A stretch of DNA of 64,000 nt from Pectobacterium polaris. GTDB taxonomy: Bacteria > Pseudomonadota > Gammaproteobacteria > Enterobacterales > Enterobacteriaceae. The stretch covers positions 1,798,001 through 1,862,000 of the forward strand of contig NZ_CP017481.1 of the NCBI RefSeq assembly GCF_002307355.1, in the 5' to 3' direction. Below, piece by piece: positions 13,994 through 24,276 of the stretch. The position numbers and the translations under genes are program-made. Below the pieces are notes generated by a model, which did not search any database, was not told the DNA's origin, and was given only the letters and a program-made list of their open reading frames with translations. Numbering within the stretch: position 1 is the stretch's first letter; each line of letters starts with the position of its first letter.

Positions 13994-14009
13994 AGTGACT
14001 GTTTTCACA
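13994..14009 (+). promoter_or_regulatory. CRP-cAMP site upstream of the PTS operon
   Basis: AGTGA-N6-TCACA differs by one base from the ideal CRP core. It lies 54 nt before the RAT antiterminator and so in a suitable place to activate the operon promoter. The promoter itself was not assigned. Confidence 0.55.
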
Positions 14010-14062
14010 GAATAAAACGTAGAGATAGCTTTCTCCGCGTGAACTTGTTAGAAAACAGGAAA

Positions 14063-14092
14063 GGACGTCACCAGAATTTTCTGGGCGAGACC
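14063..14092 (+). promoter_or_regulatory. RAT ribonucleic antiterminator (BglG/LicT/SacY type)
   Basis: A 30-nt element starting GGACGTCACC and ending GGGCGAGACC has the imperfect-hairpin form of RAT sites. Its last three bases are the first bases of the following terminator stem, so the two structures exclude each other. A BglG-family protein, active when the PTS sugar is present, would stabilise it and allow transcription into the PTS gene. No BglG gene is in the window. Confidence 0.8.
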
Positions 14093-14138
14093 TGGATAAA
14101 GCAGCGTATAGCACGCTGCTTTATCCAGGTTTTTTTTT
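14090..14138 (+). terminator. Conditional leader terminator of the PTS operon
   Basis: An 18-bp perfect stem (ACCTGGATAAAGCAGCGT with its complement) with a 5-nt loop is followed by nine Ts, 85 nt before the PTS start. It overlaps the RAT element by three bases. Confidence 0.88.
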
Positions 14139-14222
14139 GCTTATTTTCCAGCTGGCCAGCGGACAACAAGCGGGATGACGTGTATTGGGCAGTTGCAGCC
14201 ATTGACGAAACGGGAAGTCATT

Positions 14223-16175
14223 ATGAATAGCAAAGTGCTAGCTGAAAATATTTTGAGGTTGGTCGGGGGAGAGGCGAATGTCTCCACTCTGGTTCATTGT
14301 GCAACACGCTTGCGCTTTAAGATTGTCGATCACGGTAAGGTGGATGTGGCTGCGCTTGAGGCGCTGGAAGGCGTCATTACGGTCATCAACGCATCAGGGC
14401 AATTGCAGGTGGTGATCGGGAACCGGGTGCCGGAAGTGTACCGCGCCTTTGGTTCCATCTCTGGTTTACTGGAAGATGGTACGAATAAACAGAAGCCAGT
14501 AGAAAATGAAAAATCGGTTTCTATGATGGGACGACTGATTGATCTGGTCGCGGGTATTTTCACCCCGCTGCTAGGAGCAATGGCGGCAGCGGGTGTACTG
14601 AAAGGTGCGCTGGCGATTGTTATTGCCTGTGGGTGGTTAGGTCCAAAAGAAAGTACTTATGTGATACTGCATGCGGCCTCTGACAGCTTGTTCTACTTCT
14701 TGCCTATGCTGTTGGCTATTACGTCCGCGCGTAAGTTTGACACTAATATTTTCGTGGCAGTATCGATTGCGGGCGCTCTGGTTTATCCCTCAATACAAGG
14801 GCTATTTGAGGCAGGCCAGCCTGTAACCTTCTTAGGGTTGCCGGTCGTGATGATGAAATACACATCCTCGGTGCTCCCGATTATTTTCAGCATATGGCTG
14901 ATGTCTTATCTCGAGCGTTTCCTGAATCGTCATATTCACGAAAGTGTGCGTAACATTTTAACGCCGTTCTTCCTATTAACGCTGATGGTGCCGTTAACGC
15001 TGATGACCATTGGCCCAATCGGTATCACGGCCAGTAAACTCGTCGCTTCACTGTTTGTTAGCATCTATAGCTTTAACCCAATCATCGCTGGTGCGTTGAT
15101 TGCGGCTTCATGGCAGATCTTAGTGATTTTCGGTATTCACTGGGGTTTCGTGACCGTCTTTATCAATGATATTTCCGTTATGGGGCACAGTTACCTTAAA
15201 GCGGCATCTAGCCCGTCTGTCTTTGCTCAATCCGGTGCGTTATTGGGCGTGATGGTGCGAACCAAAGATAAGAAGCTCAAAGCGCTGGCGGGGAGTTCGT
15301 TCATTGCGTCACTGTTTGGTATCACGGAACCCGGTGTCTACGGCGTCACGCTGAAGCTGAAAAAACCGTTTATCTGTGCAGTGATCGCCGCGGCAATGGG
15401 CGGGGCTATCGCAGGCTATGCGAAAAGCTCGGCGATTTCTATGGGGATGCCTGGATTGCTGACACTGCCGATTTTCTATGGTGAAGGCTTCGTTGGGTTC
15501 CTCATTGGCTGTGCTATCGCATTTGTCGCAAGTTTTGTGCTGACTATTGTGGTTGGGTTTGATGATCCAACCCCGCCGGCCGGGAAAGTGCCAGCGCCTG
15601 CCACTGCGCCGGCAGCGACCTCCACTTCAACGACAGCATCCACTACATCTAGTGCATCGACAACTTCGGCTGCTGGCGCGAACGTGATGCCATCGACAAT
15701 ACCGTTGGAAGAAGCTCCCGCCACGGCAGAGCAACTGGGCTCGCCCGCAAAAGGTGAACTCATCCCATTGGAAGAGGTAAACGACAAGGTGTTCTCTTCT
15801 GGTGTGGTTGGGCAAGGCGTAGCCATTGTGCCGAATGAAGGCTGCATTTATTCACCGGTGGATGGCGTGATTGCCAGCACGTTTGCCAGTGGTCATGCCG
15901 TCGGTATTCGCTCGCAAAACGGTGCGGAAATCCTTATCCATGTGGGTATCAATACGGTTCAACTGGAAGGGCAGCACTACCAAATGCGTGTTGAAGAAGG
16001 TGATGAAGTGAAGAAAGGCCAACTGCTGCTGGAATTCGATCTGGAAGCGATCAAGAAAGCAGGTTACGACATCGTGACGCCGATGGTGGTAACAAATCCT
16101 GAAGACTATCGCGTATTTGGCGTGAGTTCTGTTCGTCACCCGCAGGCTGGCGACACGATCATCGCGCTGGCGTAG
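14223..16175 (+). CDS. Beta-glucoside-type PTS permease, EIIBCA (BglF-like)
   Basis: 650 aa from ATG 14223 ([14 protein letters not shown]); the longer frame from 14175 adds 16 unlike residues. Domain order is IIB (phosphorylated C26 in LVHCATRL), membrane IIC from about residue 95 to 450, a Thr/Ala/Ser-rich linker, and IIA ([16 protein letters not shown] with the phosphorylated His). This is the BglF/AscF arrangement: import with 6-phosphorylation of an aryl-beta-glucoside or a related glucoside. BglF-type enzymes also phosphorylate their antiterminator, fitting the RAT leader. It is first in an operon with three sulfatases and their maturase, which is unusual for this family. The exact sugar is not readable from sequence. 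Confidence 0.92.
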
Positions 16176-16251
16176 CGCTGTGAATGATTAGGGCATTTGC
16201 CGCCAGATAACGCGTGGCAGCGCGCAGCTCAAGACGTCTGAGGAAACCTAA

Positions 16252-22638: not shown

Positions 22639-22662
22639 TCTATCATCTTATGTGCTATAGGG

Positions 22663-24051
22663 TTACAGCGATTTTCCGTTGCTGCTAATCACATCCTGAT
22701 ACCAGTAGAAGCTGTCTTTGCGCCGACGCTCCAGCGTGCCTTTGCCCTCATCATCGCGATCCACATGAATAAAGCCGTAGCGTTTTGACATCTGCGCCGT
22801 CCCCGCGCTGACCAGATCGATCGGCCCCCAACTGGTGTAGCCCAGCAGTTCGACGCCATCGTCGATGGCTTCACGTACTTGAATCAGATGGCGACGCAGG
22901 TAATCAATGCGGTAGCTGTCGTGAATGCTACCGTCCTCTTCCACCACGTCGCGTGCGCCCAGCCCGTTTTCCACGATGAACAGCGGCTTCTGATAGCGGT
23001 CATACAGCTCGTTTAGCAGGAAGCGCAGGCCTTCTGGGTCAATCTGCCAGCCCCATTCGGAGGCCTCAAGGTGCGGGTTAGGAATCAGACGGATGATATT
23101 GCCGCGTGACGATTGATATTTTTCTGGTTCGAAGGTCGCGCAGCCGCTCATGTAATAGCTGAAGGAGACAAAATCTACGGTGTGGCTCAGGTCGTCTTTA
23201 TCCTGCGCGGTAATGGTGAGTTCGACGCCATTTTCCCGGAAATAGCGCTGGATCCAGGCCGGATAGGTGCCGCGTACCTGCACATCGCCGAAGAACAGCC
23301 ATTCACGGTTCTTGCTCTGCGCTTCCAGCACATCTTTCGGATGGCAGGTCATAGGGTAGCGTACCGCGCCCAATAGCATGTTGCCAATTTTGGCATCCGG
23401 GATAATGTCGTGACAGGCTTTTACCGCGCGTGCGCTGGCAACTAACTGGTGGTGGATGGCCTGATAAATTTCTTGCTTCGAGGGTTCGCCGCCCAGCCCG
23501 ATGCCCGTAAAGGGCGAGTGCAGCGCCATGTTGATTTCATTGAAAGTCAGCCAGTGCTTCACCTTATCTTTATAGCGGCTGAAAACGGTACGGGCATACT
23601 TCTCAAAATGGTCGATGACGGCACGACTGCCCCAGCCTCCCAGTTTTTTCACCAGCCCGTAAGGCATTTCATAATGCGACAGCGTAATCAGCGGCTGAAT
23701 CTGATGCTTTGCCATTTCATCAAACAGACGATCGTAGAAGGCCAGACCGGCTTCGCAGGGCTCGGCTTCATCGCCTTCGGGGTAAATGCGCGTCCAGGCA
23801 ATCGAGGTGCGCAACACCTTAAAACCCATTTCGGCGAACAGCTGAATATCCTGCGGGTATTGATGATAAAAATCGATGGCCCGATCTTTGATGCAGTTAA
23901 TGCTCTCATCGCGTTCCGTCACCGGACCATGTACGCCCTGTAGCTGAAGATCGGAGGTGGATACGCCTTTACCGTCTTCATTCCATGCCCCTTCAACCTG
24001 GTTTGCTGCAACTGAACCGCCCCATAAAAATCCGTCGGGGAATGCTTTCAT
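22663..24051 (-). CDS. GH1 6-phospho-beta-glucosidase (BglA/AscB-like)
   Basis: 462 aa. It hydrolyses a 6-phosphorylated beta-glucoside in the cytoplasm, the step after BglF-type import. The GH1 acid/base glutamate is in [10 protein letters not shown] and the nucleophile in [10 protein letters not shown]. The segment [10 protein letters not shown] is that of phospho-specific family members that bind the 6-phosphate. AAGGAGAAAT stands before the ATG. It is convergent with the sulfatase operon and has its own RAT-controlled leader, so it is likely co-induced with the PTS at 14223. A thio- or aryl-beta-glucoside substrate is possible but not shown. Confidence 0.93.
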
Positions 24052-24131
24052 GGTATTTCTCCTTATCGTTTTCTACATCATTACGCTGTGCCGGGCTGTG
24101 GCTCCGCGCTGGGAACCGCTGGATGACAGGC

Positions 24132-24180
24132 AAAAAAAAACTTGGGCAGAAGAGAGTAGTGCTACTCACCTCTGCCCAAG
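24132..24180 (-). terminator. Conditional leader terminator of the phospho-glucosidase gene
   Basis: Minus strand: a 19-bp imperfect stem beginning CTTGGGCAGAGG is followed by nine Ts, about 80 nt before the start. It overlaps the RAT element by three bases. Confidence 0.86.
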
Positions 24181-24207
24181 TCTCGCCCGCCATTGGCGGT
24201 AACGTCT
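24178..24207 (-). promoter_or_regulatory. RAT ribonucleic antiterminator before the phospho-glucosidase gene
   Basis: Minus strand: the element begins AGACGTTACCG and ends GGGCGAGACTT. It shares ACGT-Y-ACC and GGGCGAGAC with the RAT at 14063-14092, differing mainly in the paired middle. One BglG-family antiterminator could therefore control both units. Confidence 0.8.
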
Positions 24208-24260
24208 TGTTAGAACACTATACAATCCTGAATCTCTGCGGCAATGCCCCCGTCTGGTTA

Positions 24261-24276
24261 TGTGACTCCGGTCACG
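24261..24276 (-). promoter_or_regulatory. CRP-cAMP site upstream of the phospho-glucosidase gene
   Basis: TGTGA-N6-TCACG on the plus strand, one base off the ideal. It is upstream of the RAT leader, in the same relation as the site before the PTS operon. Confidence 0.55.

Follow-up and report, generated by a model that had tools for sequence, protein, structure and literature searches.

Sulfatase and maturase genes in a predicted BglG-type beta-glucoside antitermination regulon of Pectobacterium polaris

The described systems closest to the one considered here are the bgl operon of Escherichia coli (bglGFBHIK), its kin arbGFB and bglTPB in soft-rot bacteria, and the atsBA pair of Klebsiella, which encodes an arylsulfatase and its maturase; the regulation of bacterial sulfatases is usually discussed either as sulfur control or as polysaccharide-locus control. 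The locus that is the subject of this work occupies positions 13994..24276 of a 64,000-nucleotide (nt) window, by which we mean the whole stretch of DNA analysed, from the 4.83-Mb genome of Pectobacterium polaris, and it combines three sulfatase genes (S1, S2, and S3), an anaerobic sulfatase maturase (anSME) gene, a gene for a beta-glucoside transporter of the phosphotransferase system (PTS), and a 6-phospho-beta-glucosidase gene of family GH1. Like the E. coli bgl operon and its kin, it has leaders in which a BglG-type ribonucleic antiterminator (RAT) is joined to a terminator, an EIIBCA PTS protein, and a 6-phospho-beta-glucosidase, and its fuller versions in other genomes share with E. coli bgl a LamB-type porin; unlike E. 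coli bgl, its regulon includes a sulfatase and maturase module, its antiterminator is encoded at an unlinked site, and the PTS and GH1 genes form convergent units with one RAT each. The placement of a Ser-type sulfatase beside a radical-SAM maturase recalls Klebsiella atsBA, whereas the window has several sulfatases of different subfamilies, a RAT with a CRP-like site, and a joined PTS. Our strongest claim is a regulatory one, namely that sulfatase and maturase genes appear, from leader sequences and gene order, to belong to beta-glucoside antitermination regulons. Each of the parts is known, but as far as we have seen neither the combination nor its control has been described, and a literature search, with most subscription papers outside its reach, returned no description of sulfatases under BglG control.

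Both transcription units of the locus open with the same cassette, consisting of a CRP-like site, a spacing of 54 nt, and a RAT that overlaps a terminator. On the plus strand, ahead of the PTS gene, the CRP-like site AGTGA-N6-TCACA (13994..14009) precedes the BglG/LicT-type RAT of the PTS-sulfatase operon (14063..14092), the 3' end of which is overlapped by a leader terminator with a T run (14091..14138). On the minus strand, ahead of the GH1 gene, the CRP-like site CGTGA-N6-TCACA (24261..24276) precedes a RAT (24179..24207) and an overlapping leader terminator with a T run (24132..24180), which is seen in the sequence and absent from the terminator-scan list; the outer ends of the two CRP-like sites are the given bounds of the locus. 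Both terminators are strong, and each element ahead of them has the architecture of a BglG/LicT RAT, an assignment that was then tested. Its core, GACGTYACC-loop-GGGCGAGAC, has two matches in the window and none in 100 shuffles, two matches in the whole genome, where the pattern read backwards has none, and is present, one per leader, in 23 of 25 genomes of the genus (the present one included). An alignment of 16 RATs drawn from bglG, PTS, and GH1 leaders has 96.9% of its cells paired, with changes on both sides in 7 of 10 pairs, and none of 500 shuffles, which ignore relatedness, matched it in percentage paired, in double-change cells, or in covariation score, while the number of pairs with double changes was reached by 98 of them and the number of pair types by 311. 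The covariance model built from these 16 sequences alone (R1), all of them leaders of bglG, PTS, or glucosidase genes, scores the two RATs of the window at E-values of 1.6e-8 (PTS unit) and 3e-9 (GH1 unit), with the next best at 3.1, and detects both leaders in all 23 loci of the genus. Compared with TGTGA-N6-TCACA, the CRP-like site has one mismatch in 22 of the 23 PTS leaders and in 22 of the 23 GH1 leaders, the exception in both cases being G297 (two and three mismatches, respectively), in which the PTS gene is broken; the distance from site to RAT core is 54 nt, with 55 in two PTS leaders, and 54 nt in every GH1 leader, and among 3000 stretches of 150 nt taken at random from the window, 28 had a site with at most one mismatch. 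An Rfam scan of the window returned a greA leader and two tRNAs and no RAT-type family, and a promoter scan of the window was at chance level (9 found versus 9.4 expected). Two further candidates were set aside: a fourth match in the same genome under relaxed letters, which has no T run in the bases behind it and was rejected as chance, and the sole match to the RAT pattern outside the genus in an order-wide search (G215), which falls within an open frame (L024, 5069-6085) and has nothing nearby that matches a window protein.

The genes behind these leaders are all full-length open frames. In plus-strand order they are a DUF305 gene, the PTS gene, S1, S2, the anSME gene, and S3, with intergenic gaps of 56-101 bases within the run from PTS to S3, and the GH1 gene lies convergently on the minus strand, with PfpI-like and LysR genes beyond it. 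The bgl-type PTS protein (14223..16175, plus strand, 650 residues, TIGR01995 at 717.9 bits against a cut-off of 614.7) carries the motifs HCATR and IHVGI, which we take to be the EIIB Cys and EIIA His motifs, and its nearest named proteins, at 98%, are from Pectobacterium polaris and P. punjabense. The three sulfatases, all on the plus strand, each match PF00884, have the [C/S]xPxRxxxxTG motif, and begin with an N-terminus that, judged by eye, is signal-like. S1 (16252..17982, SAPSRAGLITG) is of the Ser type and its nearest solved chains are named S1_8 sulfatase; S2 (18055..19521, SSPSRGGLMTG) is also of the Ser type, is arylsulfatase-A-like, and has arylsulfatase A and carrageenan sulfatases as solved relatives; S3 (20909..22588, CSPSRASILTG) is of the Cys type, and its nearest solved chains include GlcNAc-6-sulfatase and mucin-desulfating sulfatase. 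These relatives are hints of family and not of substrate, and S1 to S3 are all far under the NCBIfam cut-offs of the choline sulfatase and PRK13759 arylsulfatase equivalogs (best 211.7 versus 481 and 166.1 versus 433.45). The maturase (19623..20852, plus strand), a radical SAM/SPASM protein, scores 491.2 bits for TIGR03942 (cut-off 349.45) and has the motif CNIDCSYC. The GH1 enzyme (22663..24051, minus strand) scores 625.3 for NF007356 (cut-off 623), has 6wgd_A as its best solved chain, and carries SKRY, presumably the phosphate-loop motif; its opposite, convergent orientation makes it a second transcription unit, and an inverted repeat at 22600..22637, again seen in the sequence and absent from the terminator-scan list, is read as a terminator common to both units. 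The preliminary description of this locus had recognised three sulfatases, their maturase, a BglF-type PTS, and a 6-phospho-beta-glucosidase, and the frames and family scores bear out this gene content. The locus also has the RAT overlapping an intrinsic terminator, the EIIBCA PTS, and the 6-phospho-beta-glucosidase of a BglG/LicT-controlled system.

Four BglG-family genes are found in this genome, and one of them, of class C, lies unlinked at a distance of about 0.9 Mb, next to another GH1 gene and with no PTS gene beside it. The leader of the class C operon contains a similar RAT, GGACGTGATC...GAGCGAAACC, and a terminator; the pattern was matched in 16 of 19 class C leaders and, with one letter changed, in one more, the remaining two being without it. 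Some members of the genus (G307, G308, G310, G311, and G315) carry behind the PTS gene a bglG of class E, which is 61-72% identical to class C and about 47, 38, and 36% identical to classes A, B, and D, respectively. Counted across 25 genus genomes and uncorrected for shared ancestry, a class C or E gene is present in all 22 genomes that have both RATs and a full-length PTS, and it is not intact in the other three, of which G300 and G314 are without the RAT pattern and G297 has both its PTS and its class C gene broken; the class C gene of G313 is split near its end. This co-occurrence, together with the similar RAT in the class C leader, makes the class C protein the likely trans-acting partner of the RATs in the window, and the window PTS its probable sensor.

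Within Pectobacterium, the sulfatases form an accessory module of this unit. Among the 23 genus loci that have both RATs (G and L numbers denote the genomes and locus records compared), seven contain sulfatase genes (G000, G299, G301, G303, G308, G311, and G315), and in all seven the module stands behind the PTS gene on the same strand. In six of the seven it ends at the repeat that directly trails the PTS gene in empty loci, which argues that the module belongs to the PTS operon. Fuller versions, in G308, G311, and G315, have the order PTS-bglG-LamB porin-Sde182-like protein-S1-anSME-S3 and an additional RAT ahead of the porin; this RAT is also present in the decayed locus of G310. The LamB-type porin and the Sde182-like "cellulose-binding" protein were named by Pfam on G311 and are 96-99% identical in G308, G310, and G315. 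The PTS alleles fall into groups 93-98% and 82-85% identical to that of the window, and sulfatases accompany both. S2 is rare, being found in one of 394 genomes of the order at an E-value of 1e-130 (its own genome) and in four of 392 genomes of the family at 1e-110, its own included. As a separate observation, G315 has a 97-residue duplicate of the 3' end of GH1 just behind S3 (L072, 525-815), apart from the full GH1 gene, and this may be a trace of a past insertion.

The association between sulfatases and BglG-type loci extends beyond this position. Across the 25 genus genomes, every one of the 12 matches to S3 with at least 71% identity, fragments in two cases, falls within a BglG-type locus, and those outside the first locus belong to a second locus of the bgl type (class A) in G296, G299, and G307, with the order bglG-PTS-GH1-LamB, then anSME, S3, and a CBM48 esterase, and in G307 a carboxylesterase too. 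Esterase genes (carboxylesterase or CBM48 esterase) stand in this class A locus of three genus members at L178 8539-10074, L176 11933-13099, L177 11749-12915, and L178 1904-3082, and their position beside the sulfatase module suggests acylated as well as sulfated glucosides. Related sulfatases or maturases were compared in 11 distinct records from outside the genus and from the second Pectobacterium locus. The records, a non-random sample obtained by way of S1, S2, and S3, are those of I. alba (L016), Mixta theicola (L017 and L168, one record), another genome of the Mixta genus (L167), two genomes assigned to Tatumella by S1 identity (L163 and L164), L165, the Sodalis-like L166, the second-locus records L176, L177, and L178, and a Klebsiella plasmid (L179); I. 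alba and Sodalis we take to be insect-associated bacteria. Outside this count are three genomes of the order with S1 at 36-38%, 14 plasmid records with S1 at no more than 39%, and two with anSME at 48-50%. In seven of the 11 records R1 detects a RAT ahead of a unit that includes a sulfatase or anSME gene, namely in L179 (E-values 3.1e-8 and 3e-6), L165 (5.5e-7 and 7.2e-6), L166 (1.1e-6 and 1.7e-5), L178 (3.8e-6), and L016 (1.8e-4, 2.2e-4, and 1.1e-3), as well as before anSME in L177 and L176 (1.3e-4 and 4.5e-4). R1 had been trained on none of these RATs, though its training set did contain leaders of bglG or PTS from L165 and L166 and one bglG leader from L178. A linked bgl-type PTS is found in all seven RAT-bearing records, truncated in I. 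alba and broken in L166, and in none of the four others. The bglG, PTS, and GH1 genes of L165, L166, and L179 are nearest to the class A set (55-77%), with a PTS only 39-44% identical to that of the window, so the same functions have been brought together with a different PTS, in a different order, and under a different type of RAT. Beside the sulfatases in four records lies a secreted-looking family of about 300-390 residues (L165 6488-7648, L016 11604-12743, L166 7483-8382, and L179 12188-13351), preceded by a RAT in L165, L166, and L179; Pfam gave no hit above cut-off for three members, the AlphaFold model has a mean predicted local distance difference test score of 35.5 and no conclusion was drawn from it, and the family may be porin-like.

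The Klebsiella case places the set on a plasmid. K. pneumoniae plasmid NZ_CP092401.1, typed as conjugative and IncFIB/IncHI1B and originating from bovine mastitis milk, is the sole record with a near-identical sulfatase among 72,556 plasmid records. It has an arylsulfatase and a hypothetical porin-like gene on the minus strand, followed by sulfatase-anSME-bglG-bglF-ascB-sulfatase, and RATs precede bglF as well as each of the two divergent sulfatase units; the catalytic motif was not found in the last sulfatase-like gene by the pattern used. It thus resembles the window in its sulfatases, anSME, bglF-type PTS, 6-phospho-beta-glucosidase, and RATs, but differs from it in gene order, in a PTS 39% identical to that of the window, in a canonical RAT sequence, and in having its own bglG. 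E. coli genomes had no match to S1, and a search of 5426 E. coli genomes with the Klebsiella set matched three, over 14% of the query and in PTS and GH1 only; the three, NC_022364.1, NZ_CP043487.1, and NZ_CP043486.1, have a bglF and GH1 stretch 75% identical to that of the plasmid.

Taken at the level of sequence, the co-regulation of the sulfatases with beta-glucoside uptake is well supported, and we consider it probable that the locus is a BglG-type beta-glucoside uptake unit with an added periplasmic desulfation module. The binding, induction, export, enzyme activities, order of steps, and substrate would, as we infer them, be as follows. With no inducer both leaders would terminate; when the PTS carries a beta-glucoside, the unlinked class C antiterminator would bind both RATs and block the leader terminators, so that read-through by RNA polymerase would transcribe PTS-S1-S2-anSME-S3 and GH1, with the CRP-like sites presumably adding catabolite control. 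The maturase would activate the sulfatases, which would be exported and strip sulfate from sulfated beta-glucosides (aryl or short-oligosaccharide glucosides), and the freed glucoside would be phosphorylated and imported by the PTS and then cleaved by GH1. Desulfation outside before PTS uptake and cleavage by the 6-phospho-beta-glucosidase is the likeliest role, given the protein families and the signal-like N-termini, and together with the esterases found elsewhere the sulfatases suggest a stripping of decorations off beta-glucosides. The preliminary description had proposed the same sequence of desulfation outside, PTS uptake, and intracellular hydrolysis, which is a natural reading of the families, as one joined locus and one possible pathway for sulfated beta-glucosides. 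Its link between sulfatases and beta-glucoside uptake is upheld by the common operon and RNA switch and by the RATs before sulfatase or maturase units in other genera, the second Pectobacterium locus, and the Klebsiella plasmid, and the shared operon and RATs would also speak against the sulfatase and PTS genes not being co-induced; its notion of a single dedicated pathway for the whole set is not supported, since the PTS and GH1 genes stand alone in 12 of the 23 genus loci. This pair is not specific to sulfated substrates.

Several observations weigh against an uptake unit with a desulfation module. Those same 12 loci have nothing but the shared repeat between PTS and GH1; one further locus has only bglG there and another a GH65/PTS/LacI/HAD/RafY cassette, while in G297 and G310 the module has decayed to remnants, and in G308 a sequence other than the shared repeat lies behind S3. 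No bglG gene adjoins the window's units or lies within the locus, where an antiterminator gene in the same operon might be looked for. In L176 and L177 the RAT that R1 finds stands ahead of anSME and not of S3; the two Mixta genomes have S2 and anSME with no PTS and weak RAT scores (E-values 0.08-0.13), and the two Tatumella genomes have S1 and anSME without PTS, GH1, or RAT. The unrelated GH65/PTS/LacI cassette at the PTS-GH1 junction in G198, G308, and G315 (Pfam names from G308; GH65 protein 82-88% identical in G315 and G198), together with the sulfatase-free loci, means that proximity alone proves little. This cassette, with LacI, PTS, GH65, HAD, and RafY-porin genes on the strand opposite to PTS (L023 6032-13490, L063 2276-9743, and L072 937-8472), makes the junction look like an insertion hotspot for sugar genes. 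Its presence in three genomes and the patchy occurrence of the sulfatases would suit a module that is cargo at a permissive insertion site, kept for sulfur scavenging or another purpose and transcribed merely by read-through from PTS. We regard this as improbable, because in other genera and in the second Pectobacterium locus sulfatase or anSME units have their own RATs, in other positions and with another PTS allele, the porin-to-sulfatase segment of G308, G311, G315, and what remains of G310 has a RAT of its own, and the CRP-like sites suggest carbon rather than sulfur control.

It is somewhat less improbable, if still unlikely, that the sulfatases and associated outer-membrane porins handle fragments of sulfated oligo- or polysaccharides and that the PTS and GH1 enzyme import ordinary beta-glucosides set free alongside those fragments, in which case the RAT link would reflect a shared inducer and not one linear pathway. 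The presence of three different sulfatases, the proximity of S3 to carbohydrate sulfatases and of S2 to carrageenan sulfatases, and the addition in fuller versions of a LamB-type porin with a Sde182-like protein, or of a CBM48 esterase, are in its favour; bgl-type PTS carriers, however, are known for small glucosides, and no polysaccharide lyase or secreted endo-glycosidase was recognised in the modules, in which the library search did not take in every open frame and the Sde182-like protein may itself be one. Quite improbable, in our view, is the narrower proposal, for which the preliminary description had named glucosinolates as candidates, that the substrate is a glucosinolate whose desulfo form is consumed by PTS and GH1. 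A review (PMC6767122) does describe sinigrin degradation as substantially reduced in E. coli O157:H7 after disruption of 6-phospho-beta-glucosidase genes, induction of a glucose-specific PTS by sinigrin in E. coli VL8, and gut strains using desulfoglucosinolates as a carbon source, and it calls the part that sulfatases play in glucosinolate metabolism by bacteria still unclear, with the enzymes unidentified. The window resembles the gut-bacterial route proposed there in PTS phosphorylation, the 6-phospho-beta-glucosidase, and desulfoglucosinolates as possible intermediates, and differs in that its sulfatase genes appear to share an operon and RNA switch with the PTS. Yet no sequence feature points to a thiohydroximate sulfate, the several sulfatase families, and the esterases elsewhere, suggest more than one kind of decoration, and related loci occur in the bovine-milk plasmid and in I. 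alba and Sodalis, where glucosinolate is not an obvious substrate.

Adjoining the locus, positions 26001-29000 of the window have a low G+C content of 0.39-0.40, an uncharacterised open reading frame of 402 residues, and a small open reading frame beside a tRNA-Met, and may be a small island.

For the family as a whole, we incline modestly to the view that enterobacteria share a mobile, repeatedly reassembled use of sulfated beta-glucosides, in which exported sulfatases, a radical-SAM maturase, and porins would be placed in a BglG regulon and PTS sensing of the desulfated glucoside would induce the enzymes that produce it; the Klebsiella plasmid indicates that the whole set can reside on an element typed as conjugative. 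If sulfatases do lie in BglG regulons, they would be governed by PTS sugars and not by sulfur, and the RAT would become a searchable mark for the inducer and for the rest of the regulon. The locus also offers candidates for the unassigned sulfatase step of glucosinolate metabolism in bacteria, and the regulon would give a genetic handle on the use of sulfated glucosides by plant- and insect-associated enterobacteria.

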